Shown one piece after another: positions 944 to 62,501 of a stretch of 64,000 nt of DNA. Location: the NCBI GenBank assembly GCA_033439295.1, contig JAVTLE010000001.1, positions 496,001 through 560,000 of the forward strand. Reading direction: 5' to 3'. A model generated the notes under the pieces. That model saw nothing but the letters and a program-made list of their open reading frames with translations, ran no database searches and was not told the origin of the DNA. Within the stretch, counting starts at the first letter, position 1. Every line of letters starts with the position of its first letter. This DNA comes from Deuterostichococcus epilithicus (lineage: Eukaryota; Chlorophyta; Trebouxiophyceae; Prasiolales; Stichococcaceae). Both the position numbers and the translations under genes were made by a program.

Positions 944-3900
944 CTAGTCCCGGTAGCGCATGGACGCCTTCTCGAAGCCGATGGTGGGGAAGTCCTTGGC
1001 AAACGCCTCCACCTGCGATCCCCAGCCGCACAGAGTACATGTCAAGGCGGCAGCCCAGCTCCCTTGGGCTCTGGACGAGAGGGAGCCGGGGGCTCCCGGC
1101 GCGGCTCCCGCAGCGTATTGCTGCCTGTCCCGGGAGGCACGCTGTGCTCGGCTGCAGCACATGAGGACTATGCGTGCTGGAAAAGAGGATGGGGCGACAG
1201 CAGGGCTGGGGCCTCACGTCGGCCTTGAGGTCGGCGATTGACTCGGGTAGGCCCTTCTCCAGGTGCGCGCGGAAGTCCTTCAGCTTGGGGCCGCTCTCCT
1301 TCTTGAGCTGCTGTGCGATCTCCACGCCCCTGCGGCGCAACACATCGCAAAGGGTCGGCGTGGTGTGCCTGGCAATCGAGCAGAGCACACAAATGCGCAG
1401 CAGCAGGCAGCTGCCGCCACGGCGGTGCAGCAGCCACACGGTGCGAGCCCTGCGGTGAGCCCTGCGGCGCGCGCGAGGATCCTCCTGGAAAGTGAACGGG
1501 TTTGCCGTGCATTTGCCGGCAAGCAAGGGTCTAAAGAGCAGGATGTTTCCGCGCCCAGCTCTCCCGGCTCTGACTCAACGTTGCGGCTCTCGAGGCATAC
1601 AGACACGCTGCAGCGGGGCAAAAGCTGCGCAGTGGCCCCAGGCTCACGAGAAGCGGCATGCAGCCAGGGGAGAGTTCCTCCAATGCGTGGTGAACGCCCC
1701 GTGCCCAGCATCATGAACAAGCGCGTGCGCTCAGCATCATTGGATGGGCGCGCACCGGTGCACAAAATCGGCGACCTGTGCGAAGTCAGACTCCACGAAG
1801 CCGCGCGATGTGAGCGCCGGCGTGCCCATCCGCAGACCGCCGGGAACCTGCGGGGGTGGGTTTGCGCTTTAGGGGCGTAGGGGGGAGCATGGGATCAGCG
1901 GCGTTAGCGGCACCGTCGGCAGCACCGCCTGTCGGCGTGCTTGTGCATTCCCGAGCCTTGCAGCCAGCGGGATGTTCCAGAGGGACTGTGGCTGAGGGAC
2001 ACCACTCTGCAGCCGGTGCATCGGCACAAAGGGTGCGAACCATGGCGGACTTGTCGCCAGGCACGGTGTTCCCGTTGGCAGCGGCAGCGATGTGGAATCG
2101 GGGTGCAAAAACACTCTGCAGCCGGTGCATCGCCACATGGGCTGCGCACCATGGCGGACTTGTCGCCGGGCACGGTGTTCTTGTTGGCGGCAATGTGGGC
2201 CAGCTCCAGGACGCGCTCCACCCGGCTGCCGTCCACGCCCTGCGGCTTCAGGTCCACCAGCACCAGGTGGTTCTCCGTGCCTGCGGGACGGGGGGCGGAG
2301 GCTGAGTTAGGGGCGTTATGGGTTATGTCATGGGTCTTGGCTCAGCCGTCCACGCCCTGCGGCTTCAGGTCCACCAGCACCAGGTGATTCTCCGTGCCTG
2401 CAGGAGGGGGAGCGGAGGCTGAGTTATGGGTGGTTGTCGTTGGCGACTGCGCCTGAGGCGGAAGGCTGCACCGGTAGGCTGCAATGTAAGGCTCGGTCGT
2501 CCGCGCCCAGCGGCTTCGACTCCACCAGCACTGTGTGGTGTCCTGTGCCTGCCCTGCGCGCGAGAGACGGGTTCTGGGAGTGGGGCGCACCTCCCGAGAC
2601 GAGGCTGTAGCCGTGCTCCTGGAGACGGTCCGCCATCGCCTTCGAGTTGCGTATCACCTGCAGGAAAGCACGAAACGTGTGGACGTGAGCGGCCAGTGGA
2701 GTCGCTGTGCTGGGTCGGCTGCGTGTGCTGTGCGGCCTTTGCGGGCGACCCTGCACCCTCCGATGCATGGCTGCTGTGTCCGCGGTCCACATGCAGAGGT
2801 GCACAGCTCAAAGATTCCATGAGCATTCGCACACGCACACAAAGGCTGCCGCGCACCGCCAGCTGTAGCTCAATTCATTATAATTCTTTATCGGCACTCA
2901 TGGGTCCAGCCATGCCTACCTGCTCCTGGTATGACTTGAACTCGGCGGTCTGAGCCTGTTTCAGCGCGCACGCCAGGCCGCTGATGGTGTGGTTGTGCGG
3001 GCCACCCTGCAGCACAGTGGGCAAGTGGGTGCGGCAGGGGCCTGCTCACAGACGGCAAGCGGCACATCGTGCACAGTGTGAGCTTCTGGGATGCAGGGTG
3101 TCGGCATGGTGTCTGCCGCCATCTGTTGACCGGAGCACAGGTGAGGAGGTCCGCAGGATGACAACAGCCTGTGCATGAGCGAACAAAGGCCCAATGCAGG
3201 CAATTCGAGCGAGAGGTGCTCTGCCCCAGCATGTCATACTGCACCTGTCACATAAACGGATATGGAGCTCACCTGCAGCCCAGGGAACACGGAGAAGTTG
3301 ATTTTGGACTCCAGGTCGTACATGATGTCGTCACCCTTCTTCGTCTGCCCGCGCACGCCCTTGCGGTAGAATATCATCGCGCCGCGGGGGCCGCGCAGGC
3401 TCTTGTGCGTCGTCGTCGTCACTACATCGGAGTGCTCGAACGGCGACGGCACGACGCCTGCATGTGCGAGGTGGAACCCGGGTTGGCGTGCAGTGAGCAG
3501 ATCAGGTGAGCTGGCTGGCACCAGAGGTGCATTCGAGTCTCGACCCTTCTGGTCACTGCAGTGTCAGGATGAGGCTGCTCACGAATGTTCTACCCATCTG
3601 CAGCCCTGGCTGCTGGGTCAGCTGCTGGGTCAGCATGCCACAGCCACCATAGAATGCAGATTCTCTGCCGCCCTGCAGATCTCAGCCAGGGAACTTCCGA
3701 GCCTGGAGCGCACCCGCCGCGACAAGGCCGCTGATGTGGGCCATGTCCGACAGCAGGTATGCCTTGCTGGCGTCGGCGATCTTGCGCATGCGCGCATAGT
3801 CGATCGGCCGCGCGTACGCCGACGTGCCCGCAATCAGGATCTTTGGGCGGTACAGGGTGGCCGTCGCCTCCAGGGCGTCGTAGTCGATCAGGCCAGTGGA

Positions 3901-6112
3901 CTCATCCAGGCGGTAGGGTAGCGTCTGCGGGGCGGCGGCAGCCGTGAGCATGCAGTGGGGTTGCCTCCTCAACGACATTTGATGGGGGACTACAGGCGAA
4001 CATCTGGTGCATAAATTGCAAGCTTTGCCCAGTCCATGCAGGCTTCATCCAGTGTTGCGCAAAAGTTCGTCCGCCTGCCCAGGGGGATCTCTGCCGACGG
4101 CCTGCAGCGGGCGCCTAAGCGACATGGCGAGCAGGAGGGCTCGATTCGACATCTTCGACTTCCTGAGAGCCAGAAAAAGGCCAGAGGGGTGTGCACCTCG
4201 AAGAAGATGGACACTGCAGAGATCTTCTTGGCGTCCGTCTGGAAGCCGTGGCTGAGGTGGCCGCCGTGCGGCAGGTCCAGCCCCATGATGCGCTCGTGCG
4301 GCTGCAGCAGGCCCGTGAACACCTGCGTGGGGTGGCGGCAGCAGGGAGACGCTCAGCACAGTCAGGCGACACAAGGGCGCATGCACTCTCGCATGCGATG
4401 GCACGCAGATATGGCGAAGCAAACACTGTCGTCGGTCTGCAGGCGCTGCTGTGACCCCTGTGGCAGCGCGCAGCGCCAGCCGTCTCCCCGTGGATGCAAC
4501 CCACAAGCCAGCTGCGCAGCTGTTCCAATCTGCTCAGTCTATCCTGCTCAGTCTGCCCATCAACTCTTCGCAAAAGTCGCAAGAACCTTGCTGATCTCAC
4601 CTGGAAGTTGGCGGGCGAGCCTGACAGCGACTGCACGTTGACGCCCCACTTCTCCGGGTCCAGCCGGAACGCCTCCAGAGCGCGCTTCTGCAGGTTGGCA
4701 GGGTTGCGGTGCTGCCATCAGCACCAACCTTCCAGATCGGCACGAGGAGGCACTCTCAGAAGCACTCACCCGTTCAAGGAGGAAGGTCTGGGTTCCCAGG
4801 GACCATATGCTGCAAATGTGCCGCAAGGGCGGTGTACCTTAGCAATGCTAGCCATGTCAGGCCAATGCCACGTCTCAAACCTGCTTCGCTCGGGTCAGGC
4901 CCGTAAGCAGGTCCTCTCCAACAAAATGGACGCCATTTGGCGAGCCGCACAGCATCCGAGCACACCTGGCACAGCGACTCCGCCATGTCGATGAACTCGT
5001 TTCCACCATAGTAGCGGGCGCCCGGGTAGCCCTCCGAGTACTTGTTGGTCATGACGCTGCCGACTGCGTCCATGACGCTCGAGGACACGAAATTCTCACT
5101 GGGAATGAGCTCCAGGCCCTACGAAAGGGGGACAAGCAGTAGCGGGGTCAGCCCGTGAGGTCCCAGGCGCGGGCGGGCGGCGGCAGCTGCGCCAGGCTGC
5201 CGAGGGCTACGCACATCACAGCATATGGTCCCTGGGAACCCAGAACTATGTCCGGGATTGCGAGTCTCAGAACTACATCCGGCATTGCGAGTACCAACGG
5301 AGACTGCCTTTTGGCACGCCCCCGCACTTGCAAGCCCCACAATGCATTGAGACACAAACGTGCAAAGGGCTGCAGCGGCGGCGAACCTTCCACTGCCGGT
5401 TCTTCTCGTGCTCAATGATGTCGAAGAGCTCTGGGTCCACCTCCTCCAGCCGCTTGTTCAGCGCCTTGGGCCACTGTCATGTTTCAAGAGCCACAAGCTC
5501 ATGTCAAGGTGCAAGCCTGTGCACGCAAGAGCGCAGCCAGGCTGTGCTCAAGTGCCAGATGCCCCATCTGCTGTCGCACCCCCCATAGGTGTGATGGAAA
5601 GCCCACTGCGCTTCGGTGCTCGAAGACCGAAGTCAGCGCTGCCAGCAGGCGTGCAAGCACGAGGCGCGAGGCAGGCGCACCGTCACATGGCTGCGGTCAG
5701 AGCTGGACGCAAACTTGGAGTACTCTTCCTCGTTGGAGATGGGCTCCGCCTGCGACATGCCCTCTCTGGTGACTTCACTGCGCAGTGTTGCTGCTCACAG
5801 AGCAGTGTCGCTGCGGTGTCTGCAAACAAGTGCCTGCGCAGGCGCACACAGTGCAAGCTGGCGCTTTCGCAGGCTCACCTGCGCCGCAAAGCTCCTGGTG
5901 CTGCTGGCGCCCTGTCGGAAGGCAGAGCAGTGTGACGGTTGAAACATTGCATGTTGCCACGCATCGTCTACGTATGCTCGCGAGCACCTTGCACAACACG
6001 CCGCTTCTGCAGTCTTTGCACACGGCATGCAACATTGCTGAGCGATGCTTACCACAGCGCGCAGCGACGGCGCGAGCCTCTGCAGCGACCGACGCATGAG
6101 CATGCCTGCCAT
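944..6112 (-). CDS. SHMT: Serine hydroxymethyltransferase, mitochondrial
   Basis: PLP enzyme that interconverts serine plus tetrahydrofolate with glycine plus 5,10-methylene-THF (one-carbon metabolism, photorespiration). Thirteen exons read in frame. Exon 1 (6112-6053) encodes [20 protein letters not shown], a basic amphipathic mitochondrial leader. Later exons carry [24 protein letters not shown] (exon 3, 5118-4966), [18 protein letters not shown] (4687-4601), [27 protein letters not shown] and the PLP-lysine motif [13 protein letters not shown]. Exon 8 is [12 protein letters not shown]. Exon 10 (2280-2150) ends [10 protein letters not shown], exon 11 begins [17 protein letters not shown], and the last exon ends [10 protein letters not shown] with TAG at 946-944. 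The active-site set is complete, so the gene looks functional. Introns 9 and 10 contain partial repeats of exon 10, and introns 2 and 3 carry an inverted repeat around exon 3. It is head-to-head with grpE. Confidence 0.95.
2001..2197 (-). repeat. Tandem copy of the 3' edge of SHMT exon 10
   Basis: About 90 bp spanning the end of exon 10 ([10 protein letters not shown] plus the donor, 2111-2197) recurs at 2001-2094, about 109 bp away, inside the downstream intron. The copy keeps the frame ([10 protein letters not shown]) and a GT after the ATG. Confidence 0.85.
2222..2563 (-). repeat. Three copies of the 5' edge of SHMT exon 10
   Basis: The acceptor plus exon start ([17 protein letters not shown]) at 2222-2328 is repeated almost exactly at 2342-2438, and in diverged form ([17 protein letters not shown]) at 2491-2563. 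Only the first copy continues into the rest of the exon. Confidence 0.85.
4787..5244. repeat. 26-bp perfect inverted repeat flanking SHMT exon 3
   Basis: The arms at 4787-4812 and 5219-5244 are exact reverse complements (core CCCAGGGACCATATGCTG). They lie in the introns on either side of exon 3 (4966-5118). The right arm runs into a short imperfect tandem duplication (about 27-bp unit, 5241-5295). Confidence 0.9.
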
Positions 6113-6741: not shown

Positions 6742-9700
6742 ATGGCAGCCATGACGGCTTCGACGAGTTTGACGACCCGGCAAACGGCGCAGCCACTGGC
6801 CAGAGCCGCCAGCACAGCACGCTGCTGTCCCCTCGCAGCGCCAGGCGTCGTCGTCGTCCGTTACAGATCGTCAGCCGTCGCCCGGCTCCGGCAATCAGCG
6901 ACCCTGAACAGCAGTCAGCGGCGACGATTCTGCCTGCGGGCAGCTGCTGACGAGGTGCATCTGCGATAGAAACTCGAGACTTCTGGAACAGCATGCATGT
7001 CATCTGATGCATGCACTCAGGGACGTGTTTCCCTGGACAGGGTTGCTCAGTAGTTCGCTAGCACGCATGCTTAGTACTTGGCCTCTCTTTTTCAACCATG
7101 CAGACTGCCACAGAGGACGCGGCGGCAGAGGCGGATGCGGCAGCAGACAGCGGGTGGGTGTTCATGTTGCTCATGCACTTCAATTAGCTCCGCATTACTA
7201 CATCGAATTCCCTACGCGAACTCTCCAGGCGTGTTTGGTCGCTTGACTGTGGCGTGTGCGACATGGTGGCGGCCTTACCCACCATGCTGATTCGCCCGCG
7301 AATGGCATGTCTGCCGGCAGGGCGGAAGAGGTGCCAATCGAGGAGACATCAGACAGCTCCCCCTTCGCGGAGCTCATTCAGCGCGCGCGCGACGCCATGG
7401 CGTCTGGCGACCAGGATGATCAGGTGGGTCCTGGGCGCGCAGGACATGTGGGAATGGATGTCGGCAGTTTGCCGGCAGTCTTCATCTGGGACGGCAGTCT
7501 TCATCTGGGCAGGGCGATGCACAGCCGTTGCAGCATCATTGCGCTTGCAGCACTGCCGAGCTCGTACCCTGCATAATCATTGGAGACCACAGCTCGGAAA
7601 GGCAACATTTGCGTCCCCTGCAATGTTCCAGGACCAGGTTCTCGCGGAGATTGACACGCAGCTCACTGTGTCGGCCGCTAAGGCAGAGGCGGCGGATGCG
7701 CAGCTGTCAGCAGCACAGGGCGATGCTGACGCAGCACAGGTGAGAGCCCGCCTCCTGGCGATCTTTATCTTCAGACGTGGCATCCCGCGGTCTGCTTGCG
7801 AGCCGTGCAGCCGGCAGCTGACTCGTACCAACACCCCTCGGGCAGGGCGTGCGACCTGGGGTCCTGCTACAGAGCACCGCCTGCTGGCTGCATGTTGCAG
7901 CATTCCGCAGACAGACCAGGACGCCCTTGGCGGGTACCGTCCCGCGAGGGGTTCCGCCGGCAGGCAGCTGGTTGTGGTCCGGCTGCCGCCGCAGACGCCG
8001 GGAACTCTGCGGCTGGGCACGGGTCGATGGCAGACACCGCAGCACCTGCAGCCTCGAGCTTCGCAATTCTGCACGCAGGACAAGTACTTGCGGCTGAACG
8101 CCGAGTTTGACAACTACCGGAAGCGCTCCACGAAGGAGAAGTCGGACGCGGTGAACAAGGCCAAGGGCGGCGTCATCTCGGTGCGCCCCTGTCACTCCCC
8201 CCAGGGTGTCGCGGGCCCTGCGGTCGCACGCTGGGCTCTGGCGTCCGCCCTCTCGCGGCGCTGCGGCTGATCTCTGGGCAGTCTGCACATGCACAGCTCC
8301 GTCCGTCTCACCGCCTCTGTGCGTCACTTCCTGGCAGAGCGTCGCGGCTTGCGGGTCGCGCGCTGGATTTGCTCCCGCGGCGCGGCGGCCTCCGTGCCCA
8401 AATGCTAAACCACGTTGCACCCGCTTTCCCGCGCAGGACCTGCTGCCGGTCATCGATGCCTTCGAGGCTGCGGCGGGGCAGGTGAAGGCGGAGACGGAGG
8501 GCGAGCAGCGAATCGCGGCCTCCTACCAGGTGTGATTCCGAGCAGGGTTCCAACACCAGGGTGCACACCCTGGTGCAGAGTCTGAATGGCAGGGTCTGGA
8601 GGGGTCGCCAGACAGCGGCGCCGCCGCCCTGCCTGCGACTCGCCTCGGAGCCCTCACAGGCGCCAGACCCACCAGGGCATGAAACTTGCAGCGCGCGTGC
8701 CGGACGCCGCTCGTCTGCGTGCACCGCTCTGGCCGCGTGCGACGACTGGCAGGCCGTGAGGCGCTGCCGCATGCGCAGGGGCTGCATACGAAGCTGGTGC
8801 TGCATTCACAGGGGCCGAAGCGAGGTCAGGTATTTATCTATGTTTTACAATTTAAATAAATATATATTGTCGCAGGGGCTGTATGCGAAGATGGTGGACG
8901 CCTTCAAGAAGATGGGCTTGGAGGTGGTCCCTGGCGTGGGGACCCCCTTCGACCCCGAGGCAAGTCCTCGCTCTCACGTCGTTCCATACCACCCCTGATA
9001 CTGCAGCACAATGCACTCGGCTTGCAGACGTCAGCCTTCAGAGTGGCGACAGGGGCATGCCCTTCGTCCCCGAGGCGGGCTTGCACCTAAAATGCCCCCC
9101 AGATTGTACCTCATGTGTCAGCAGCGCAATGTGCACTGCTCTGGGTATGCCTCGACACGAGCGAGCGGATGCCCGCTGGCGTGGCGCGGCCGGCAGTGCA
9201 TTCTACACGGGGGTTGGGTTGGCGCCGTCTCAGGTATAGTCAGGCAGCGAGTGAACCACAGCAGCACGTCGATGGGAAGCTGCTTTGTCGATTGCTTCGA
9301 AGACCACATGCCAACGCGGGCAGCACAGTGCAAATGGGGACGGGCATGCAGTCTGCTGGCGCGCCGACGCTCAGGGCCAGGTTTTGTTCTGCGCAGGTGC
9401 ACGAGGCGATCATGCGGGCGCCCAGCAACGACATGCCCGACGGCTCTGTGCTGCAGGAGTTCCGCCGCGGCTTCAAGATTGGCGGCACCCTGCTGCGGCC
9501 CGCCATGGTGCAGGCGCGGCATTTGCAGGGCGCCCTAGTTGTCCTGGGGCTGCAGCAACTGTCTCCAGCATCATGCAGCCACAACCCGGGGTGCTGGGTG
9601 GTGCAATTTGGCATCTGGATGCACCCACACCGCTGGCGGAACCGCTGTCGATGTATGCAGGCAGGAGGTCGTGTGCAAGCAGGCGGTGAGCCTGTGGCGG

Positions 9701-9856: not shown

Positions 9857-10391
9857 ATCAGCGGAGCGGCACGGCAGTCGCACGGACATTCCACGCATAC
9901 TTCAAGTCATGGCATGGGTCCGCGCAGTCGATCTGCTGCAGAATCGGTTGCCAACTGGAGACGGTCCAATTGATACCTAGAGTAGGTAGCAGGGCAGGCG
10001 GCTGTCCCACCGTCAGTTGGCCCAAGCGGCAATGTGTGGAGAGTGATCCAGAGGTACAGGTCGTGAATTGGGTCCGATGTGCCAGCAGTTGCGCTCTCTG
10101 CTAAGGTGACTGACACATTGGCTGCAATTACCAACGAGCCAGAAATGTATGACACCGCTGTCATCTTCGTCAGTGCACTAGATATTGGCTGCCATCTGCT
10201 CGCATGTGCTTCATGCCCTGCGTGGCTCTGCCAGTTCCTGGAGCCCGCACGTGGGGAACTCCTGCAGCGCAATGTCACCAGCCTGAGCACAGCCCATGCA
10301 GCCCAGTCTGGCATGTCCAGTCGTGGCCGAGTGCTAACCCTGGCTACTGGCACTGCAAGGCGGATGTGCTACTAGAAAATGAGCAGTACCT
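9857..10391. other. Tail-to-tail intergenic region
   Basis: About 535 bp lie between the grpE and CHMP1 stop codons. It is presumably the two 3' UTRs. No convincing gene or poly(A) signal was seen. Confidence 0.4.
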
Positions 10392-12113
10392 CTATCCCCT
10401 CCGCAGCTCCGCGATGCGTGAAGACAGGTCGTCGTTGGCCTGTCCCTGCGCCGGCGCCCGGATGGGCGCATTGGCCGCGCCCGGCAGCCCCAGGCTGACC
10501 TCCAGGCCGTGCTCGTCTGCGCGCAGGCGCAGCGAAGGTGTGACAAAAGACCAGGAGATGTGGGATGCAGGGCCGAAGCGCGGAGCCCTCCAGAGCCTCT
10601 CCATGCTCCTGAGAGCGACTCATGATGCAAGCTGTTCACGTTGCACGCACCACAACGGCGAGGTCTGCCCTCTGGCAGCAAAGCCACGCAGCAACCTGCA
10701 GGCCAAGATGTCGTGCGAGCATCATGTTGCTGCAGGGTGTTGTCGGTTCAGGGCGCGCACCTGCGACCTGCTGCATGAGCTCATTGACGTCCTCCTCCGG
10801 CGTCGACAGCGCCGCCTGGTTGTTCATCGCGTTCTCCACCACGCCCTGCACACAGGACACGTGATCAGGTTTCGCGCTGACTCAAAACTCATTGCAAAAA
10901 TCTTCAGTTCTTGACCGCGGCCCTCACTAGGCAGGCACGGCCATTCGAAGTGTGCTGGCATTGCAGCGGCATCGCAATGATGCTGGCGGCAGAGCGGCGA
11001 TGCTCCCGGCGGCTCAGGCAATCCAGCGCCCAACTGACACGCTCGCCACCTCGGCCGTGGGTTGCGACCGAGGTAGAAAGTAAACAAGGGTTGGGCTTTG
11101 TGGGGCACTCGCATGGAGCGCACCGTCTGCACGTCCAGCGTCTCGAACTGGGTCTCGAATTTGTCCATCGTCTCCGCCATTTTCTCCAGGTTGTTGCCGG
11201 CCAGCGCCACGTCCAGACTCTTTACGATGCCCACCATGCTGGCATTCACCTGGTGTGTGGACAGCATTCAATGCTGATACAACCTGCTCCGAGTTGCTGC
11301 GTCAAGCGCGGTTTTGTCCAGCGCTGCTTGCGGCAGCTGTCGCCATGTCGAGGCTGTTGACGCCGCCCAAAGTGCATCCATGTGCAGTTGTTTGTACGCC
11401 TTTGCGCTCGCTGTGGGCACCGGAAAGCATGACATCGAGGAGCAGACTGCTGGTGGCCACTGCATCCAGGACGTTGGCCATGCCACCAGGCAGCCAGAAG
11501 TCCCTGACCCACCTGGTTCATCTTGACCTGGGTGTCTAGCCGCGAGGACACAGCGTCAAGGCGCGACGCCAGGCGCAGGTAATTGAGAGCCTCGTTCTTT
11601 TTCCGGATGGCGTTCTGCGCATAGACCTACGGGCCAGCACAGAGCTTCAGGGTTAGTTGTGTCCAGGAGCACCTGCAGCGCTTGCAGACGTTGCTGTGCA
11701 GCGGCTGTCGTTGGGTGTATGCATGAACGAGAGCGGCGCCAGCGTCTAGCGGCGTGTCCGGGCAGGCATTGTGCTTCTGTACGGCGCTTTCTGCATGCAG
11801 CGGCGGCGCGGGCACCTTGGCGATGTCGATGTTGCCCTTCTCGATGGCCGCCTTGACGCGCAGCTTCTCCGCCTGCCGATGGAGTGTTTGCACTTTCAAT
11901 CTGAGTCATCAGAGTCAACGAAGCCAGGCACCAGGGCTGCCGCAATATGCGTCCTCGCAGCGGGTTGTGTTGGGAACGCAGTAACTTCGAGTCAGTCACC
12001 TTCTCCTCCTTCTCCGACTTTTTCGACGCCTTGCTCAGCTGCTTCGACGTGAACTTGAGGTTGAAGACCTGGTCAGCCATCTGCCGCTCGGCGCGGGCCT
12101 TGAGGAACCCCAT
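10392..12113 (-). CDS. CHMP1: ESCRT-III subunit CHMP1 (Vps46/Did2), copy A
   Basis: Membrane-remodelling ESCRT-III accessory subunit that recruits Vps4 during multivesicular-body sorting. Exon 1 (12113-12000) encodes [20 protein letters not shown] and the helix 1 basic region [17 protein letters not shown]. Later exons give [86 protein letters not shown] and [13 protein letters not shown]. The C-terminal end [13 protein letters not shown] is the MIM1 motif that binds the Vps4 MIT domain. Order and spacing match plant CHMP1 proteins closely. A second CHMP1 lies 16 kb away (28395-29745); this copy has one more intron, near the DVQ/VVENAM junction. The start was chosen because plant CHMP1 proteins carry a similar short leader before the NLKFTSK helix. 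Confidence 0.92.
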
Positions 12114-47885: not shown

Positions 47886-47982
47886 ATGTCGCATGCGAAC
47901 GCGGGCCGGCTGTCAGCCAAGCAGCGGCGGCAAGCAGAGGCCACGCCGGCAAATGGTGGGCGGCAGCACAATGGGCCCACGA

Positions 47983-48017
<35 letters not shown>

Positions 48018-51000
48018 CTGCAGCAGCAGCCGGAGCAGGCAGCGGCTCAGCCGATGTGGCGGCGACCAGCGGTGCTGCTGGCAGTGGCGCTCATGATGGT
48101 GTTGGCGGTGCACCCGGCATCGCACAGGCGGGGCGCGGCGCTGCATCAGCGGCTGGCGCGGCGGCACCTGGAGGGCAGCTCTGCTGAAGCAGGCGAGTGC
48201 TCTACTTGGCGCTGGGGGCTGCGCGATATGTCGACAGCTCAGAGCAGAAATCGCCGGACGCCGCCCCGTACCGGTTGCTCTGTGTCGCCCCCTGCTGTTC
48301 CGCAATCATATATCGCAGGCGCCGGTATCAAGCTCGAATGGTGATCCGGGTCTCACGCTGCACTTTACCTTCACCAACCCCCTCCATCTCATCTCCCACC
48401 ACCGGCCCACTCGGCGCAGGCAGCCGACGCGGCAAGGCGCCGACACAGCCGTCCGCAGCCGCACTGGCGGCCGCTAGGGCGGCAGCAACGTCAGTAGGCG
48501 CCATGGGCGACGCCTCAATTGCCGCTTCAGTGGCGCTGCAGGCCTCAGGCATCGCAGACCTCGAGGACGCAAAACACGCCAGTGGTAGGTCCGATGTCTC
48601 AGGGAAGTGGAGTCACCGTCGTCAGCATTCCGCAGCTTCAAGTCGCGGAAGGCCGCGTCGCATTCCCGCCGCATTGTGTGTGCAGCCTTGAGGGCCGGCT
48701 GAGGGCACAGGCCGGTGTCTTCGGGTCGTGGCACAACTTGCATTCGAGCCGAGCTTGCACATCCTGCGCATGCATCGTGCTACACCCTGCACCGGACCCC
48801 CCAAGCCCGTAAGGCATCTCGCTTGTGCATTTTGGCTTCTGGGCAGCCGCAGCTCGGCCACCTCCAGCAGCAGCATGGCACTCGTCATGCTGTGTGGCTG
48901 CATGCCTTGCTTCCCCAGACCCACACCTCATCTCGTTGACACGGCTCCTGTTATGTGTTTCAGACCCGCCGCCCGACAGGACTCGGCCAATGCCGGACTA
49001 CAAGCCGCCGGGCGACAACTTCCAGCCGCCGATTGTGCGCGACAGCGCCAAGCCGTGGTACATGCTGGAGCGGCTGTTGCGGCCCAATCCCATGGTGAGG
49101 CGGCTGGCAGCGCGCTGCCATGCAGGACCCTGTAAACGTATGAGGCCTTCCAGACGGATTTCCACTGTTTTGCACTACAGGGGGCGTCGCTGTGCCTGGT
49201 GGTCGAGGTCCTGGGCCGGGAGGTGCCAGAGCGCCTTAAGGCAGCCTAATCACCCATTGAACCCTACATTGGCTCACTGTTGTCTGTGGTTTCCCAGAGG
49301 GGGCGTGGGAAGGGGGGGTTGAGTGGCGCTGTGCCTGGCGGTGGGGGACCAGGTTTTGGACATGCTAGACTGGCTGGAGGCCGCAGGTTTTGACACGAAA
49401 GACCATCGGAACGCATCGAGCGTCGTTGTTTGGTGACCATGCCATTGTGTGTGTCCAGGGCGAGGTGGCGCTGTGCCTGGCGGTGAAGGACCAGGCGCGG
49501 GACATGCCTGAGTGGCTGGAATGGCACCGCGCCGCCGGCGTTGGTCGCGTGTACATGTTCGACATGGGCAGCGCACCGCCCATGAACCAGGCAAGGAGTT
49601 TCCCCGGATTCGTTCGATGCAGTCCAATCGGGGACTCCTGTGATATATTGGCATTCACAGCATGCTGCGCTGCGGTGGTGCGGCGCGGCTGCACGGCGGC
49701 GACGGGTGGCCGCCGGCACACGGCGGGGGTATGGTCCGGGGTATAGGACCCTGCCTCGGGCGGCATATCAGCCCATTCGCTGAGATGATGGACCATCACC
49801 ACGCGCGTCCCAGCAATGTCAGCAGTTCATGCTGCTTCCGATTCATGGCCTGCTTCGTGGCGGACCCGTCCATAGGGAGGGTGCCGCTTTTGCCGCCTGA
49901 AAGAGCTGCGCTGTTGCAGACGATGACCATGTTGCAGCGTCTCTGTTCGGCAAACCCACCTCGGACTCCAGCGTTGTTGGTGCCTCGCAGTCGCTGCAAG
50001 CCTACATCGACGACGGCCTGGTTGAGTACCATTGGGTCAGCAAAAGCAGCATGGGCCCAAAAAAGCAGGCCATGGGGCCGCAGCTCCAGGTGCGTGCCGG
50101 CACCGACACCCGCTGCCCTGAAATTGCTTCCCGCGCCGGCTGCCCCTGCAGCGCATGGGCAGTCTGCGCATGCGGTGTCTGCAGTGGGCCCACAGCGCTG
50201 CGGCTGTGCCCGTCTGGCGGTCAGTGCACACCTTCGCCAGCACGCATGCTGGCGCCGCTGCCTGCACTGCACAGGAGACATGCTGCCCTCCGGCATCCAT
50301 CAACCCGCTCAGAACGGACATGCGGCATTGCTTCCAGCACTGGCCCGGCTATTGTAGACTTTCGGCACACACGCTCAAGGTCAGCATGCCGTGCTTGTGC
50401 CCCTGCAGATCTACGACATCTGCCTGCACGAGTTTGCGCACCGCCATGCCTGGATGGGCTTCATCGACGCCGACGAGTTCATCGTGCTGCGGGACCGGTC
50501 GCAGCGGCTGCCGGGGTTTCTGAAGGTCCGGCACTCCGTCTCCATTTCCCCATCACATACGATGCCACAGGCTGGGCTGCAGCTATTTGCTAAGCGTGCT
50601 GGGGACAAGGGCTGAGGTTTGCTGATGCTCGACTGCATGCGTCCTCTGAACCATGCTGCGCATTCGACCACGGTTGCGGCTCAGCCCTTTTGCGCTGGCA
50701 TGACGCAGGCCTACCGTCGGCTCGGCGCGCTGGCCGTTAACTGGGTGGTCTTCGGCTCGTCGGGGCACAAGACGCGGCCGCGGGATGGCGTCATGCGATC
50801 ATACTGGTGCGAAGCCGCCGGTCGTTCGGCTGCTGTTTGTTGTATTTTCCTACACTGAGAAGCGGCCCATCTGGTCCTGTTGAGTGCCTCACCTGAGCCT
50901 CTGTCACGCCTTGCGGCCCCTGGCTGTTGGGGCGGCCCGCATGATGTAGAACACATCCCTGTGCGAAACACCCGAACAGCTCATCAGAGGGGCCTCAACC

Positions 51001-53296
51001 CGGCATGCTATTGGGTCTGCACAGCGGGCGCTGCGCCTGTAGATCATGCATGTTGGTCCCGCATCTGGGCGGCTGCATCAGCCGGCAGTCCACACTCGTG
51101 TGCAGGAAGTGCCTCAACTCAACCAGCATCCACCCGCGGCACGTGAAGATGCTGGTCAACCTGAGATATGGCGATCGCCCATACATGGACCCTCACACGT
51201 TCACGTGCGCTGCTTTGGCACTGTTCCACTGATGAGGTCTCACTGATGGCAGCATCGTCACGGACATCTCCAGTTGGTCCCAGCCGCGCCGCACCTGCTC
51301 CCCATGTCCTCAATCTTGGTTTTGAGGACTTTGCCGTCCTGCACTGCGCTCGTGAATCCAGTGCCGTGGCACTCCCTCAGGTGCACCAGGGGCGCCGCTT
51401 GGATGCAATCAATGCACACACGGAAGGCCCAGGGCCCAACAGCGCTTTTGCATTGCGGTCCCTGAGCAGTCCCGCTTGCCCAACCAAGTCGCTGGGTGCA
51501 CAAGATGCTTTGCTCACTCCCTTGCAGGTACACCAGTGGCAAGCGAGCCGTGAATGAACGCGGCGCCCTGGTGGACGAGCCCATACACCCCTACCACACC
51601 TCGGAAAAGGTGCGCACCCCGGCAGTGCTCGCCCCGGATTTACTGGCGGCGCCCTGCCTTACCACGGCCCCACGACTGGAACCCACACATGTGGTGGCTG
51701 CACCTTGCAATGGGAAGGTGCAGATTATCGAGCGACCAGCCCAACCCCGAGCGTCGGCCCTCTTGACGGGATCGCGTGTCCCCCGCGCAGATTGCGCTGC
51801 ACCACTACGTTCTGAAAAGCCTTGAGGAGTACAAGGTGAGGCGGTGTAACATTAAACTTCGAGGACTTGGACACCGTTGTCTGATCAATCGTCAGTGCAT
51901 AGGAGTGCAGCAACATGCCAGGCTTGTCAGCTGGTGAAACCGGATGCGGCAGCTGCTGAGGCCTGACATGCGCCTTGGCTCTGCTGTGCCTGCATGCTCC
52001 GGCAACTATTTTGCTGTCCATGCTAGGCACTTTAACATGTGCTGTCCTCGAGTCTGTCATTGACGATTCTGAAACAACAAGATAGCATCGGCTGTGCGCA
52101 CTGGAGACCCCACGAGTGTCCCCGCTGATTCTGAAAACCTACTTGGCAGGAAAAAATGGAGCGTGGGTCCGCGATGCTGAACAACAAACCCCTCGGGTTT
52201 TTTGACAGCATCGACAAGCAGGCGAACCTCGAGTGCTGGGATGGCGTCCGAGCGGCAGAAGATCTGGGTTTCAGGGCGGCACCGATCGCTGCGGCAGCGG
52301 CGGCCGCGCCGGCAGGCGCAGGCTCAGGGCCTGCAGGGGGACCGCCGCAGGCGCGGCAGCAGGCAGACCGGCACCAGCCGGCCGCGGGCCAGCCAGAGGC
52401 GCGGCCGGCCAAGCTGAAGGCGGCGGCGGCAGGCGGTGGAAAGCAGCGGAAGCAGCGGCGGCGGCCCCCNCCGGCGGCGGCGGAGGCTGCGCCGTCAGAG
52501 CCGGCGGCAGCAGACAGCGATGTCAGCGGCCCAATCAGCCTTCCACAGGGCACGGCGGCCCAGCATGCATTCAACGAAGACGCCAGCGGTGTCGTCAGCC
52601 TTCCTCAGGGCGCCGCGGAGGCAGGAGCAGCCGAGGACCACACCAGCGGACCAAGGAGCCTTCCTCAGGGCGCAGCGCAAAACGAGGCGGCCGAGGGCGA
52701 CACCAGCGGGCCGGTCAGCCTTCCTCAGGGCGCGACGGAAAAGGGCGCGGCTCAGGAAGACGTCAGCGGCCCCGTGAGCCTTCCGCAGGGCAGGTGAGGG
52801 ACGGCGGACTGTTGCTGTGGATGCGTCCTGTGCAGATGTGACTGGCAGTAGCCGTAGAGTCAGTTGCAGACTGGTTTCCGTGCTGGTACGGGGCACACCT
52901 GCTGTCACGCTGGCCATACTGAGGAGTGCGCCTCGACTTTGGCAATCCCTGATCCAGCAGGAACCCCTGCCGCTGGTATCTGCTTGATATTCCGTGTCCA
53001 GCCTAGCTGATGCTCGATCTGTGCACTGCAGCGACGGCAGCGGCAGCGACGGCAGCGGCAGCGGTAGTTCTGACGATGGCAGCCCAGGCACCAGCAGCAG
53101 CCCTTCGGGCGGCTCTGATGGCAGCGGCGGCGCCGGCGGCGCCGCCGACAATGTCAGCGGGCCCGTCAGTCTGGCGCAGGGCGCGGCGGAGGCAGGCGCT
53201 GTCGATGCGGTGCACGAGGACGTTAGCGGACCCGTCAGCCTGCCGCAGGGTGCGGCAGCGGCAGACGCCGCTACCGACTCGCAAGACAAAGAGTGA
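47886..53296 (+). CDS. GT92-family glycosyltransferase with a C-terminal repeat tail
   Basis: Type II Golgi-type enzyme of family GT92 (DUF23). Exon 1 (47886-48192) gives MSHANAGRLSAKQRRQ, a poly-Gln run, and a signal-anchor (RRPAVLLAVALMMVLAV). The catalytic part spans many exons: 48964-49094 (PMPDYKPPGDNFQPPIV), 49459-49590 (GEVALCLAVKDQARDMPEWL, WHRAAGVGRVYMFDMGS), 49991-50089 (SLQAYIDDGLVEYHWV), 50409-50525 (IYDICLHEFAHRHAWMGFID then ADEF, the DxD-like metal site), 50709 on (LAVNWVVFGSSGHKTRP), 51105 on (STSIHPRHVKMLVNLRYGDR), 51527 on (AVNERGALVDEPIHPYH), 51790 on (IALHHYVLKSLEEYK) and 52149-52793 (GSAMLNNKPLGFFDSIDKQA). The order matches GT92 proteins of plants and algae, which transfer galactose in some cases; the acceptor is unknown. 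The tail, including a final exon at about 53030-53296, is a repeat (VSGPVSLPQGAA). Introns 1 and 3 have GC donors. One N lies at 52470. Confidence 0.85.
47983..48032 (+). repeat. CAG run, poly-Gln in the GT92 protein
   Basis: Consecutive CAG codons ([16 protein letters not shown]) in the short cytosolic stretch before the signal-anchor. Length is likely polymorphic. Confidence 0.75.
49179..49520 (+). repeat. Three copies of the 5' edge of GT92 exon 3
   Basis: The exon start at 49459-49520 (GGCGCTGTGCCTGGCGGTGA) is preceded in the intron by a close copy at 49322-49380 (GGCGCTGTGCCTGGCGGTGG, continuing in step to GACTGGCTGGA) and a weaker one at 49179-49237 (GTCGCTGTGCCTGGTGGTCG). Spacing is about 140 bp. 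Confidence 0.85.
52515..53270 (+). repeat. Seven-unit protein repeat SGPVSLPQGAA in the GT92 tail
   Basis: Units of about 20-23 residues: VSGPISLPQG, ASGVVSLPQG, TSGPRSLPQG, TSGPVSLPQG, VSGPVSLPQG, then, after an intron, VSGPVSLAQG and VSGPVSLPQG. The linkers are acidic/Ala-rich (AAEAGAAEDH). The array is split by the last intron (donor at 52794). Confidence 0.85.
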
Positions 53297-56700: not shown

Positions 56701-57693
56701 GCTGGAGGCAGCTCTGGCGAGTCGCAGCGCTCAGGCGGGCTGAAACCTGCTACCGCAGCCACAGCTGCTGGGGAGGTGGCCGTCAGCGGTATCTGTGACT
56801 GCGGCAGAGCTGCGCCGCTATCACTGTCGCTGCGGCTTCCTGCAGCTGCCGGCGCCACCTGCTGCGGGAAGAGGAGGCCAGCCGGCAAGCTGGGCAGCTC
56901 CAGCAGGCAACCTGCACCAGGGCTGTCGCCTGGAAACTCAGCCACGCTGCCCAGCTGCGGCAGCAGCTCACTGCATGCAGGCAGTCCGGGTAGCTGGTGG
57001 CGTTCGGGACATGCCTGGGCAGCCGCTGGAGCCTGTGGCGACAGTGACGACGCCCGCTGCTCAGCGGCCGACCACTCCGCATGTGGCGGCTGCTGCTGCT
57101 GCTGCCGCTGCCGTTGCCGCTGCTGCTGCTGCTGCTGCTGCTGCTCGGATGGCGCCCCGCCGAACGGCTGCCTGAATTTAAACTGGCGGGCGGCCTTGGA
57201 AGGCGACTGTGCAGCGCGCACCCTGCTTGCCGCCGCGGTGCCAAGAATTGTCGGCGACAACAGGTCGTCGCTCTCGTCCAGCAGCGACAGGTCGGCGCCG
57301 TTGGTTATCATGAAGGAAAGCGGAGGCGAGTGCGGCTGCTCTGCTTCCAGGTCATCCATGCTGCTGCTGGTGCCTGCGGTGAGCAAGCCGGTCCAGTCAC
57401 CTTCAGGTGTATCGACACAAAAGCGTGCAGTAATGATGCGGCCTTGTTACAGGGAACAAGAGTACAGAGCACGGAGAGGATGATGCGGGGACTGCGCCTG
57501 CAGGCTCACTGCTAGGGTCGTTTCGGCGATTGAGCTCTCTCACGGTGCAGCGTTGCGCTGGGGCCGCGATCTGAAGCAAGGTGTCGGGTGATATGTAAAC
57601 AGGAAGCGACACTGGACTTGACCGTGCAGACTGGACCGAAGCAGCCCGAGATGTGCGCAGCTGTCGCGAATAAACTTTAAAGGATTGCGTCAT
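53757..57693 (-). CDS. Unrecognised low-complexity protein with an internal duplicated motif
   Basis: A long minus-strand gene, family not recognised. Candidate start ATG 57693 (MTQSFKVYSRQLRTSRAASV); an internal start at 57359 (MDDLEAEQPHSPPLSFM) is also possible. The main exon runs from about 57380 to 56331: acidic/Ser (ADLSLLDESDDLLSP), poly-Gln ([20 protein letters not shown]), then Pro/Ser/Ala-rich, ending SSIVAGRHFDSE. The next exon starts at 56093 (VRRSPGLLDAAELSALCTPP) and repeats the motif (SSIMAGAHLDAEAQHSPGLL, DAAELAALSTP). It continues Pro/Ala/Gln-rich through N bases at 54974-54975 and 54916, where the frame shifts, so the sequence there is unreliable. Downstream exons are probable: VPTSQPVSPATLEALIMNEA (about 54470-54560) and a last one with KKQLLAVTPESSPAAAPKRK ending PTSLAQ (TGA 53759-53757). 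The many SP/TP sites would suit kinase regulation, but no function is proposed. Confidence 0.5.
54916..54975. other. Ambiguous bases inside a coding region
   Basis: N at 54916 and NN at 54974-54975 fall in a GC-rich coding stretch. The protein-like frame changes across them, so small indels are likely in the assembly. Confidence 0.6.
57082..57150 (-). repeat. CTG/CAG run, poly-Gln in the low-complexity protein
   Basis: CTG repeats with CGT and CCG interruptions, read on the minus strand as Gln with scattered Arg. Confidence 0.7.
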
Positions 57694-57882
57694 TGTAGGG
57701 TTTTGCAGGCCGGGGCCAGCTGCGCTTGGTTTGCAAGACACTTTTCAGCATTTTGTCCAAATACGTCGTCTCACGTCGTTTTCAGAAACGTCGAGCTGCC
57801 TACCACGTGCGGGCTGCATGATTTGCTGCTTCACTCGGAGGCTTCGAAACCATTGACGTGTTTGAAGCTAAACGACGCAAAG
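57694..57882. promoter_or_regulatory. Short divergent promoter, low-complexity gene / MnmA
   Basis: Only 189 bp separate two divergent ATGs, if both start choices are right. AACCCTA, a partial telo-box, reads on the minus strand just upstream of the 57693 start. Confidence 0.4.
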
Positions 57883-60800
57883 ATGCTGTTACGCCAGCAT
57901 TTTGTCAGGTCTGACGTGTGCCAATCCGCCGTGGCCGTCAGCGCCGCCCCCCACAGTCCGGCATTCAGGCTGTGCAGGCAGCGGCCTCTGAGCCGGGCAG
58001 CCACGGCGGCGCACAGCCAGCAGACCAGCCAGCAGACAGCAGCGCAGCATGTCGAGACTGCTGATGGATCCACGACTCAATCTTGGCAGCAGCTGCTGCA
58101 GGGTGCACAGCCGCACACTCCCGCTGCAGATCCGGCAGAGGCGGAGTCTGCTGCAGGGTGGCACGTCCCGCCGCAGCTGTGGCAGGAACACCCGACGCTT
58201 CTCAGCGGGTGCAGGACCACAATCGTTGTACCCTCAACGACGCGAACACGCACCGAACACACGCCGCAGCCTTGAATGAACCATAAATGTGATGTGCTCA
58301 TTTTCACTCCACGCGCGCATGAACGAACTCCACTGGTGCACAACTACTTCGCATGTGCGGAAGCTCTCATAGTGCAGATTGCTACACATGCCTCAGGTGT
58401 GAGAGGGATCGTGCGCCGCTGCGGGTTGCTGTGCTGCTGAGCGGGGGCGTCGACAGCAGCGTTGCGCTGCGGCTGGCTCAGGTGGGCTGTTGGACGTCTG
58501 CGCCTGATGTATCCTGGACGCGCTCGATCTACCGAGGTCCATCGAATGACGGCCACCCTGTCATCTCAGTGGAGCGCAGTGTGGGCCCGTCATAGTGTCT
58601 GTGGCAGTCAAACTACGAATCACAGCGGCGGCCGCCGGCGTGGGCGCCGCCAGGCCCGCGTCGACGCCCCTGCCGCGGCGCCGCCAAGACCTCAGCTTCG
58701 ACATACATCTCTGCAAGCCGCTGCCCACAACAGGCAGCCATTCTGATTGGCAACGCCGCCGCGGCGGCAGTGAACTGGAACCTCTCAAATTGCCGCGGCC
58801 GTTGCCGCAAAGTTTAAGCTGGTTCCAGTTGATTGCCGCCGCGACGGCGTAGCTGAATCAATGGCTGCCCGCAGTGGGTGGCAGCTTGGAGACGTATTCC
58901 GGAGCTGTTGGCTTGGCGACGCCGCAGCAGGGGCGTTGGCCCAGGTCCGGCAGCGCATTGCGGCGGCCGCTGCTGCAAAATAGGCCACACCAGGCGGCAG
59001 CGGTCACTTGACCATTCAGCAGCGGTCACCAATCCAGCCCGGCTGCCGCTGTCGGCTCCTGTCTGCCGACTGCTTCTGCCGGCCGGCAGCATGCCCTAAG
59101 GTGCTAATGGGCTGACGATGCTGTCAGCAGAGCTCGCCAGCGCTCACCTATGAGGCGTGCTATGCAGGCGGTGGTCTTGTGAGGGGATGGCTCCACCGAA
59201 GCTCATCGTTGCGATGTCACTGTGCAGGCGGCGGGGCACGACGTGACGGCGTTTTACCTCCAGATATGGTTCCAGGACGACTTCCGAAACTTCTGGGGCG
59301 CCTGCCCCTGGGAGGAGGATCTGGAGTTCTGCCGCCAGGTAACAAGCTGCCGACACGTGCCCCCGACTGATCAAGTCGCATTGTTTGCGCAAGCGTGCAG
59401 TCGCGCAGGGGCTTCAGGTCGGTCGCATGGCACGCTGCGGCATCCTGCCAAGCGCCCATCTGCCTGCCGCGCAGTCGCACTCACAGGCAGCACTGCCGGC
59501 AACCTCCCTGTGCACGGCGTGTGCCGCCTTCGCCCACCCACCGCCAGTGTGCGACCGCATAGGTGTGCGAGCATGCGCCCCGCCAGCCGACCGTCAGGTG
59601 TGTTGACATGCAGGTCTGTAATCAGGCGGGCGTGGCACTGGAGGTGGTGCACCTGACGGATGCCTACTGGGAGCGTGTGGTGGCGCACAGCATCGCCGAG
59701 ATGAAGGCGGGGCGCACGCCCAACCCGGACGTGCTGTGCAACTCCAGGCGAGTGTATTCATGCAGCACCTGCAAGTGGCGACACACTGCGGAGGTATCGC
59801 CTAACCCCCATGCCCGCCGCCCGTGACCGTGCCCTTGTAACTCATGGTCCAGATGAGCCGGGATATAACCTGTTGTTTTTGGTGGTGTCAAACCGTCCGG
59901 CGGGGGGTCACCGGCCGCGCCTGCCATGCGGCCCATGCAGCAGCCATCAGCCTGTTAGAACAGGGCGCCTTTCTGCTCGGCTCAGGAACATCAAAACTCT
60001 TTGCTCGGACTGGCAGGGTCAAGTTTGGCGCATTCCTGGAGCACTTGGAGGGCGGGTACGCGGGCTGCTTTGACCGCGTCGCCTCGGGCCACTATGCCGC
60101 GGTCGACCATAGCTCAGATGGCGAAGCGACGCTTTGCACCACGGGTGACGCTGTCAAGGACCAGACCTACTTCCTGGCACATCTGACACAGGTAAGTCTT
60201 CCATACACTGCGCTTGCCTTCTCTTCTGTGAAGCTTGCCGTCGTGAAGGACCTTATCAACTAATAGACACACCTGTTGACGTACCTGTTATGCGTCAGAC
60301 GATCCAACTTGTCACTGTGTCAATCATCACTGCACACCCAGGAGTGGTTGCGGAATCGTTTAACCTTCTGGCTGCTGCAGAGCTTTGGCGTCGTGTGAGC
60401 CAGCTGGTAGTTGCGGGCAGCTGCATGCTGCATGCGGCAGGCGCAGCGTTTTGAATAAATGCTGCCATCCGAAGATCTTGTCCCGTCCAAACTCAGGCGC
60501 AGCTGGCTCGGACGATGTTCCCGCTGGCGCCGCTGACCAAGGCGGGCGTGCGCGCGCTGGCTGCGGCGGCGGGGCTGCCGACACAGGCGCGGCGCGATAG
60601 CCAGGGCATCTGCTTCCTGGGCAAGGTTGGTATTTGACAAGAAGCGTCCTGCATGTGACGTATTGTGGCTGCAGCATAGTTTTGGGTCGCAGCGGCCAAG
60701 CTGCCACCACAGGGGCGCCGTGATGGCCCTGCCACCCACTTCCTTGGCAAGGCGTCGGGGCTGCTGGAAGCAACGGAAGGGTGCCCCCGCGTCAGCGGCA

Positions 60801-62501
60801 ACAGTGCAGCTGTGACGGCAGCAGTAGGGCGATGGGAGCTGGCACTCGTAAGGCTAGAACAGCCATGCAGCAACCTCAGCAGGGTTGCTGGCGCGACGAA
60901 GCTGGCGCGGCTTCTGCTGCAGGAAGTGCAGCTCCTGGGTCTACAGTAACCCGCTCAAGCGGTGCTCGGCCATGGTTGAGGCTGCTGGACGGCAAAATTC
61001 ATCGCCCCTGCAGCTCTGGGGAGCTAACCACGGAGAGTTTGGTGGGCGTGCACCAGGGCTCTGGCCGCTTGCAGGGGCATCCCCTCACAGTCATGCAAAT
61101 CAGGTACAGAGCGCACGTTTTTGTGTCACGCATCGCAGGTGCAGCACTCGGAGTTTGTGCGGGAGCACTTGGGCACATGGCCGGGCCCGCTGATCGAGGA
61201 GGACACCAACCAGATCGTCGGCTTCCACGAAGGTGAGCGATGTCGGCAGACATTTCGGATTGCCCGTGCCACCCTGTCTTGCGCACTGTGTAAATGCTGT
61301 GAATGCAGTGAACTGGCGCCTGCATGCGCCGCCTGTGAGGCCCCACTTTCTGCATCGTCGCTAGGTCTAGGCAGTCAGGCAGGGCCTGCCTGCACGACCA
61401 TTTGGTGAAAGCTGCTCCCGGCTGAGGATAGAGTGCCTTCTCAAATTCACAGGGTTCTCATTGCACACTGATCAGCAGCCCGAGAGCATGCACAGACTAT
61501 CACCGCTTGTCCAGCTCACGGCTCTTCGCCCTGCCCCTCTCCCTGCAGGCTTTTGGTTCCACACCATTGGGCAGCGCAAGGGCGTGCCGCTGTCGGGCGG
61601 CCCCTGGTACGTCGTCCGCAAGGACATCGCCGCCAACGCCGTCTACATCTCCCGCGAGTACAATACTGCGGAGCGCCTGCGCAACGGCTTCAGGTGTGGG
61701 CCGTTTTTGGAAATAACTATTTGGTCTTACTCCTGTGTATCTTCCCGCACATCGTAATCGCTGTAGATTCGGTCTACACCTCCCGCAAGCACATCGTCCC
61801 GGACCGCCTGCAAGACGGCTTCAGGTGGAGATGCTTCGGCCCTTCCCGCCACTATTTTGATGTTGTGAGGGAAGGCGGCAGTCGTCGGATCTGCGCTCCT
61901 CTGAGGCGGGGCTCCCGGGGCTGCTGCACCTCAGAGGTTTGATGGTGGCACCATTCCTACAGACTCCTACTTGCGAGGCACTAGGATGCCGAGCCGTGCA
62001 AGCCGCACATGCCCAGCCCAGCCTGATTTGCATGGTTGCCCAGTCGCGCCTTCTGATCCACGCAGGTGCGGGCCATTCAACTGGCTGAGCGGCGCGCAGC
62101 CGCACCCCTGGCGACTGACACGGTGCAAGGTGCGCCACGGGCCCGAGTCCTACGGCTGCTGCGTGCGCTTTGACGATGGCGACAGCGGCCGCGGCGGCGG
62201 CCACTGCGCTAGGAGCGGCAGCGTTGAGAGCAGTGGTGGCGATGGCGGCAGCGCGGCCTCCAGCAGCACCAGCGGTTCGCCGGCGGCCAGCAGCCCCCAG
62301 GCTGCCATTCGTCTTGGCGGCCGGGCCTGTGCCAAAGCGGGTTCCACACCTGCTGATGCCGTCAGCGCGGTGGTGACGCTGGACGGCCAGGATCAGGGTT
62401 TGGCGCCCGGCCAGTATGCGGTGTTCTATGACGGCGACGTGTGCCTTGGGTCGGCCGTCATCCAGGAGGCGCTCACGCTGCTGCATGGCCTCCCGCCATG
62501 A
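57883..62501 (+). CDS. MTU1: tRNA-specific 2-thiouridylase MnmA/TRMU, organellar
   Basis: Adds sulfur to U34 of Lys, Glu and Gln tRNAs in organelles. Nine exons are phase-consistent: 57883 to about 58208, 58397-58481, 59228-59338, 59614-59747, 60017-60191, 60497-60625, 61139-61232, 61549-61693, 62066-62501. Exon 1 is a Ser/Ala/Gln-rich leader (MLLRQHFVRSDVCQSAVAVS). Exon 2 holds the PP-loop (RVAVLLSGGVDSSVALRLAQ). Later come AAGHDVTAFYLQIWFQDDF, the catalytic Cys in TPNPDVLCNSR, FDRVASGHYAAV, KDQTYFLAHLTQ, the second catalytic Cys in RRDSQGICFLGK, FHTIGQRKGVPLSGGPWYVV, CGPFNWLSGAQP and the end GQYAVFYDGDVCLGSAVIQE. The C-terminal barrel has a Gly/Ser-rich insertion of about 65 residues after CCVRFDDGD. 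The donor of intron 4 is GC (TCCAG|GCGAGT). Intron 2 contains a long foldback, and intron 8 contains an echo of exon 8. Confidence 0.94.
58624..58977. repeat. About 350-bp imperfect foldback (long hairpin) in MnmA intron 2
   Basis: The left arm (58624-58799) pairs with the reverse complement of the right arm (58801-58977) with almost no loop. Matching blocks in order from the outside are GCGGCCGCC, ACGCCCCTG(C/T)(C/T)GCGGCG, CGCCAAG, GGCAGCCATT, CGCGGCGGCA and, near the centre, AACTGGAACC with GGTTCCAGTT. Mismatches and small bulges occur along the stem. Confidence 0.85.
61641..61830 (+). repeat. Echo of the 3' edge of MnmA exon 8
   Basis: The exon end and donor at 61641-61700 (VYISREYNTAERLRNGFR) recur at 61771-61830 (VYTSRKHIVPDRLQDGFR), again followed by a GT (TTCAG|GTGG). 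Spacing is 130 bp. Confidence 0.85.

Follow-up and report, generated by a model that had tools for sequence, protein, structure and literature searches.

Introduction

Tandem duplication has been reviewed as a route to intron gain (PMC3443670), and two described systems come closest to the one reported here. In the potato RdRp gene, a tandem duplication crossing an intron-exon boundary created a new intron (Ma et al., 2016, PMC4974935). In the human genome, repair-mediated duplications are local, some carry filler of 1–68 nt, and their donors include partial exon and intron sequence (4 of 824), with one duplicated exon inverted (Pace et al., 2009, PMC2671141). Our study reports on exon-edge copies in the green alga Deuterostichococcus epilithicus, that is, exon ends that recur within the adjoining intron. 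These were studied in a 64-kb stretch (C1:496001-560000, hereafter the window) and in 70 kb from elsewhere in the genome. We propose that the copies are probably relics of short, direct, local DNA duplications that straddled or abutted splice junctions and have since decayed neutrally.

As in the potato RdRp gene, a tandem unit would take in the 3′ portion of an intron together with the 5′ portion of the exon after it, and the copy would inherit its splice signals from the parent; unlike that case, the spare copy is here absorbed by an existing intron, and this is seen in about one-tenth of the sampled introns (PMC4974935). As in the human set, donors are local. The telomere-like spacer beside the RPS19 copy may be a counterpart of the human filler, and breakpoints in the alga could be set only with an outgroup; the algal edge copies differ in being direct, with inverted copies at chance level, and orientation is not a strict criterion for the human class (PMC2671141). 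Direct repeats near intron borders have also been described as splice-site direct repeats (Rogers and Bendich, 2025, PMC11782384). These are repeats of 4–30 bp around both ends of an intron and are interpreted as scars of insertion, whereas the copies reported here align over 19–71 columns inside one intron.

The likeness to internal gene duplication, or AGGT intron creation, is that a short direct duplication within a gene feeds intron evolution (as summarized in PMC4974935 and PMC3443670). AGGT creation predicts a copy at the far end of the intron, whereas the copies described here are found roughly one unit away from the edge they repeat. This spacing speaks against it here: the 13 donor copies stand 41–140 nt from the edge in introns of 100–703 nt, and none is at the far end. 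That mode of intron creation was reportedly set out by Rogers in 1989, by Gao and Lynch in 2009 and by Hellsten and colleagues in 2011. Among the titles and abstract openings listed by a literature search there was no account of frequent exon-edge copies in algal introns. The kind of duplication is known; its abundance and range of ages in one genome are noteworthy.

Results

The sampled DNA amounts to 134 kb of a 46.8-Mb genome (21 contigs, telomeres CCCTAAA) and comprises the window, where GC content per 2 kb is 58–71%, together with 10 kb of contig C1 (C1b) and 30 kb each of contigs C5 and C11. Genes were modeled with a purpose-built hidden Markov gene finder, trained on the same 134 kb with a minimum intron length and SHMT intron seeds, which returned 33 genes with 268 introns (median 207 nt, all GT-AG) and the consensus CAG/GTG at donors and GCAG/G at acceptors, the slash marking the junction. 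Seven copy stretches were barred by hand from exon status (five in the window, one each in C5 and C11), leaving 262 introns. Each edge was queried as up to 60 nt of exon plus 15 nt of intron (local score +1/−1, gap −3/−1), with a main cut-off of at least 16, and the chance expectation came from aligning exon edges with introns of similar length from other genes.

At this cut-off 28 edges are matched by a copy in the intron beside them, where chance would give 0.8; these edges belong to 27 of the 262 introns (10.3%). Acceptors contribute 15 (0.43 expected) and donors 13 (0.37 expected); at a score of at least 20 there are 11 acceptors (0.07 expected) and 9 donors (0.00 expected). When no stretch was barred and the exon query was 50 nt long, the 268 introns yielded 14 acceptor and 13 donor edges scoring at least 16. 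The copies are 70–95% identical to their exon edge, and their spacing has a median of 113.5 bp (10–90% range, 77–152). All 28 are direct and outward, beside the original as in a tandem duplication. Exon edges aligned with the intron at the opposite end of the same exon gave 1 and 0 matches of 231 (1/462 in total), and reversed-orientation queries against the same introns gave 1 and 0 of 262 (1/524), which is the chance level. This comparison by orientation had been suggested as a check in the preliminary description of the window, and within the sampled introns it bears the copies out. Local direct repeats of all kinds scoring at least 18 number 59, in 23 of which both copies are coding, whereas three simulated sequences averaged 1.0; local inverted repeats at this level number 6, a count that stands without a simulated baseline.

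Exon-edge copies are real, and they are general within the sampled DNA, as the preliminary description had supposed in speaking of a general process. Copy-bearing introns number 17 of 117 in the window, 1 of 14 in C1b, 3 of 68 in C5 and 6 of 63 in C11, giving 10 of 145 in the contigs sampled outside (window against outside, p=0.06). Its proposal that duplication across splice sites may lengthen introns is also borne out: the median intron is 346 nt with a copy (n=27) and 198 nt without (n=223; p=1e-8; 12 of the 262 introns, of intermediate score, are left out of this comparison), and the data support a lengthening of about one unit.

Gene identities in the window have Pfam support for SHMT (399 of 399 profile positions), GrpE, Snf7, PP2C, the IF-3 N domain, GH35, S19e, GT92 and MnmA, from a scan made before hand masking that covered 10 of the 16 window models; model W6, described below, lay outside that scan. 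The outermost coding bases of the SHMT and MnmA models, 947 and 62498, agree with the limits 944 and 62501 given earlier once the stop codon is added. Pfam matches outside the window include DEAD/DDX23, WD40 and a helicase, which we take to be RecG. The copies in SHMT are as follows:

2150–2280, minus strand: SHMT exon with both edges copied outward (gene model; Pfam SHMT profile 1–399 of 399).
2003–2082, minus strand: donor-edge copy, 89% over 80 nt, spacing 109, GT kept.
2345–2430, minus strand: acceptor-edge copy 1, 94% over 86 nt, spacing 117.
2496–2581, minus strand: acceptor-edge copy 2, 63% over 86 nt, best 55 nt 78%.

Gapped alignment leaves 4 nt between acceptor copy 1 and its original, making this nearly a pure tandem. 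The intron that holds the acceptor copies (window 2281–2590, at SG/GTENH) has no counterpart in the SHMT paralog model of C11 (L013-L014), relative to which it may have been gained or lost; the SHMT paralog model of C5 is out of frame, with 12 stops.

The copies in grpE, PP2C and IF-3 are the following:

8774–8799, plus strand: grpE, copy of the acceptor edge of exon 8876–8923, 88% over 26 nt, spacing 97.
13642–13683, minus strand: PP2C, copy of acceptor edge 13583, 86% over 42 nt, homology ending at the exon edge, without AG.
15490–15531, minus strand: PP2C, copy of the start region of exon 15195–15379, 74% over 42 nt, without AG.
16921–17256, minus strand: PP2C, three-copy series of acceptor edge 16854 (16921–17006, 17080–17115, 17186–17256).
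17411–17452, minus strand: PP2C, copy of donor edge 17558, 74% over 42 nt, GT lost.
23387–23595, minus strand: IF-3, donor-edge array, period 104, about 2.5 copies including the exon.
23807–23864, minus strand: IF-3, acceptor-edge copy, 91% over 58 nt, spacing 126, partly called exon by the initial gene model.
23948–23974, minus strand: IF-3, second acceptor-edge copy, 27 nt, 89%.

The sequence from the grpE copy to the true acceptor includes a strongly AT-rich stretch (window 8831–8870), in a genome that is otherwise GC-rich.

The beta-galactosidase gene matched by Pfam (GH35) has three copies, all weak (scores 16–18); the best copy of this type (score 23, donor edge 27229) is in model W6, presumably also a beta-galactosidase, a name that we assign from C-terminal motifs only.

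27451–27492, minus strand: copy of acceptor edge 27392 (gene named beta-galactosidase-like from its motifs), 76% over 42 nt, exon part 5 nt, AG kept.
27082–27137 (ends approximate), minus strand: copy of donor edge 27229 in W6, 85%, spacing 140, CCCG/GTGAGG kept.
31584–31625, minus strand: weak copy near donor edge 31676 of the beta-galactosidase gene (Pfam GH35), 71% over 42 nt, homology ending 18 nt before the edge.
37598–37702, plus strand: tandem repeat inside a modeled intron of the mTERF-like gene (37598–37636 and 37664–37702), period 66.
39875–39932, minus strand: RPS19 donor-edge copy, 93% over 58 nt, spacing 90, homology ending 4 nt into the intron.
39933–39964, minus strand: RPS19 spacer between the copies, telomere-like (TTTAGGG-type), with a score reached by 1 of 3377 intron 32-mers.
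49323–49378, plus strand: GT92, acceptor-edge copy 1 of exon 49459–49556, 84% over 56 nt, spacing 142, AG lost.
49183–49239, plus strand: GT92, acceptor-edge copy 2, 66% identical to copy 1.
61757–61827, plus strand: MnmA donor-edge copy, 72% over 71 nt, spacing 131, AG/GTG kept.

The preliminary description had listed nine genes with edge copies, and eight of them (SHMT, grpE, PP2C, IF-3, beta-galactosidase, RPS19, GT92 and MnmA) are confirmed; in our model of the mTERF-like gene, which has no Pfam match, the repeat would lie wholly inside an intron. The regular spacing reported within genes is seen in IF-3 (104/104 and 126/131) and GT92 (139/142), but not in PP2C (151/109/133) or SHMT (117/151). 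Near-complete head-to-tail units, with 0–18 nt between copies by gapped alignment, occur at both edges of SHMT, in IF-3 and GT92, at 3993 in C11 and at 4488 in C5. A donor copy in the WD40 gene of C11 is 93% identical to its edge and, like that of RPS19, ends 4 nt into the intron. Genome-wide searches with four copy or array sequences, among them RPS19, the IF-3 array and GT92, matched their own locus only, one of them with a paralogous SHMT exon in addition; the absence of a match is not proof of rarity.

Each copy was said earlier to keep its AG or GT, and often the frame; neither statement survives the counts. The dinucleotide is kept in 18 of 28 copies and lost in 10, and among the 22 copies aligned across the edge it is kept in 18, against 15.5 expected from the square of the identity. 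Spacing modulo 3 is 13/5/10 for remainders 0/1/2, not a significant preference for frame (p=0.17). Retention of splice dinucleotide and frame is no more than neutral decay gives. Mismatches by codon position affect 65 of 379, 65 of 376 and 86 of 372 columns (p=0.10); coding constraint would give a strong third-position bias, so these values reveal no clear constraint on the copies. At 13 of 28 copies the splice-site score is no lower than the 10th percentile for real sites, and at six it equals or exceeds that of its own original; for only 4 of the 28 would splicing at the copy keep the reading frame open. The idea that the copies create decoy exons is thus favored by the 13 sites that score as usable and weakened by the scarcity of open frames, and on these predicted scores occasional mis-splicing is possible. 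The gene finder itself took copies for exons, or began an exon at a copy, in six genes (grpE, PP2C, IF-3, GT92 and genes in C5 and C11), and barring these as exons cost only 0.7–8.6 units of its score.

Other repeats and features lie apart from the edge copies. The C-terminal part of the GT92 model contains 60-nt tandem repeats in predicted coding sequence (window 52498–53268, SGPVSLPQG-type peptide), and coding repeats also occur at bases 2075–2390 of L010. Two Snf7/CHMP1-like coding stretches (window 9905–12113 and about 28399–29132) have very similar peptides; the Pfam scan covered the first of them, and the second is fused to other genes in its model. The top-scoring local inverted repeats are at window 58712–58888 (score 36) and 4813–5218 (score 27). 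Contig C2 has only 14,706 bases and may be an organelle or a fragment.

Discussion

Our data suggest a model in which a short, direct, local duplication, with a spacing of mostly 80–150 bp, straddles or abuts a splice junction. It would arise by tandem duplication, or during the repair of breaks, when neighboring DNA is copied or filled in. After each event one exon edge would still be intact, with a surplus edge lying toward the intron. Since splicing would continue at the inner site, the protein would not be harmed, and the spare copy would become intron sequence, add about one unit to the intron and decay neutrally. We infer the mutational mechanism, the use of the inner site and the order of events from the present state of the copies. 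Those in SHMT, IF-3, the RecG-like gene (C5) and the DEAD-box gene (C11) look like pure tandem duplications. RPS19 and the WD40 gene of C11 appear to carry copies with an unrelated spacer, such as break repair would leave, and the resemblance of the RPS19 spacer to telomeric sequence suggests break repair with telomeric filler. The outward direction of the copies, which had been put forward as consistent, is indeed seen. As the sign of a special process it has little force: a surplus edge on the exon side would change the protein, and the direction is therefore probably in large part dictated by geometry and would not by itself be evidence of such a process.

A very different reading is that the copies are kept as functional alternative or mutually exclusive exons. 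The well-scoring copied sites (13 of 28 within the range of real sites, six at least equal to their original) and the low cost of barring copies mistaken for exons speak for it. We nevertheless consider it improbable, as a single splice edge is copied in each case, codon positions show no clear constraint, AG or GT is lost in 10 of 28 and the frame would stay open in four. Mutually exclusive exons in particular were rejected, since none of the copies amounts to a whole additional exon flanked by two splice sites and constrained as coding sequence. Insertion of introner-like elements or transposons carrying splice sites has a precedent, introners being reported in 5% of the species searched (PMC9860276). 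It is very improbable here, because the copied sequence is the gene's own exon; for the four copies or arrays searched in the 46.8-Mb genome, the dispersal through many genes expected of introners was not found, and this reading was rejected. Least credible of all is that the copies are assembly errors or resemble the exon edges by chance. Almost none turn up in control introns or in simulated sequence, and the copies differ from the exon by 5–30%, so they are not duplicated reads; assembly error was rejected on this divergence, with nothing found in its favor.

The observations that weigh against the simplest form of our model concern where the copies lie and where their homology stops. We simulated uniformly placed tandem duplications with the 25 observed unit lengths, rejected those that break an exon, aged the remainder and applied the same detection threshold; the share of detectable events at exon edges was 0.52–0.56 in five settings. 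Hand classification of the 59 local direct repeats, after dropping the 23 with both copies coding and three with a period below 40 and counting arrays once, places 22 of 25 real events at edges (p=0.0007 against 0.56, p=0.003 against 0.61). The share is 19 of 22 (p=0.003 and 0.01) without three doubtful events, of which those at 15321 and 31694 end 17–18 nt before the edge and that at 27388 has 5 nt of exon, and 22 of 24 against a null of about 0.69–0.73 when intergenic events are left out (p=0.009 to 0.025). Scores of at least 20 occur at 20 of 524 edges, in 1 of 333 intergenic tiles and in 1 of 493 tiles in introns without edge copies. The target length per side is 109 nt for intron-interior tiles and 244 nt for intergenic tiles, and intron-interior tiles reach this score rightward in 8 of 605, mostly in edge-anchored arrays. 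Homology on the intron side extends beyond 6 nt, at the 1% level, in only 7 of 23 edge-spanning copies. It is absent at 8876, 39969, C5 8539, C11 5304 and C11 27778, where the exon parts are 86–95% identical, a pattern that simple tandem duplication does not predict. The gaps between copies are also large in grpE (43 nt), PP2C (42), MnmA (35), RPS19 (32), C11 5304 (24) and the C11 WD40 gene (80).

A rival reading is that exon edges are specifically targeted or preferentially copied, for example through breaks or template switches tied to splice junctions or to transcription, with the copy tending to end at the splice site. The excess of edges over both the simulation and the control tiles favors this, as does homology that commonly ends within 6 nt of the splice site, and at 4 nt into the intron in the RPS19 and WD40 donor copies. 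Set against it are the small numbers, the hand classification and the several cases that are plain tandem units extending far into the intron. Outside the window, moreover, 7 of 290 edges and 1 of 447 control tiles score at least 20, giving p=0.007, which becomes 0.08 to 0.3 when only half the edge count is used to allow for one-sided decay; this decay, and the choice of the window for this very feature, confound the edge excess. The argument of the preliminary description, that so many cases suggest an active process, gains from the 22 of 25 events at edges, against 52–56% predicted, and loses from the halved comparison outside the window. On balance we regard targeting of exon edges as rather unlikely. 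We hold the same doubt toward its stronger form, in which splice junctions would be hot spots: repair or template switching coupled to splicing or transcription would carry exon sequence, as far as the junction, into the intron next to it, and introns would grow from their ends. The edge excess and the abrupt ends of homology may reflect mixed mechanisms, a loss of intron-intron similarity faster than modeled, or a real bias; a real mutational bias at splice junctions is not claimed. We favor local duplication followed by neutral decay, and read the copies as mostly neutral fossils of it, with an unexplained tendency to sit and to end at splice junctions.

For annotation, the six genes in which our gene finder mistook copies for exons are a warning. 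If the edge excess persists when the whole genome is counted, a mutational bias at splice junctions would be indicated. The lengthening of introns is seldom visible; here 27 of 262 introns hold dead exon edges of differing ages, and since the exon provides a reference for each of these, one genome could serve to measure duplication, decay and the growth of introns. On the reading favored here, the copies are a fossil record of intron growth, not a new splicing device.

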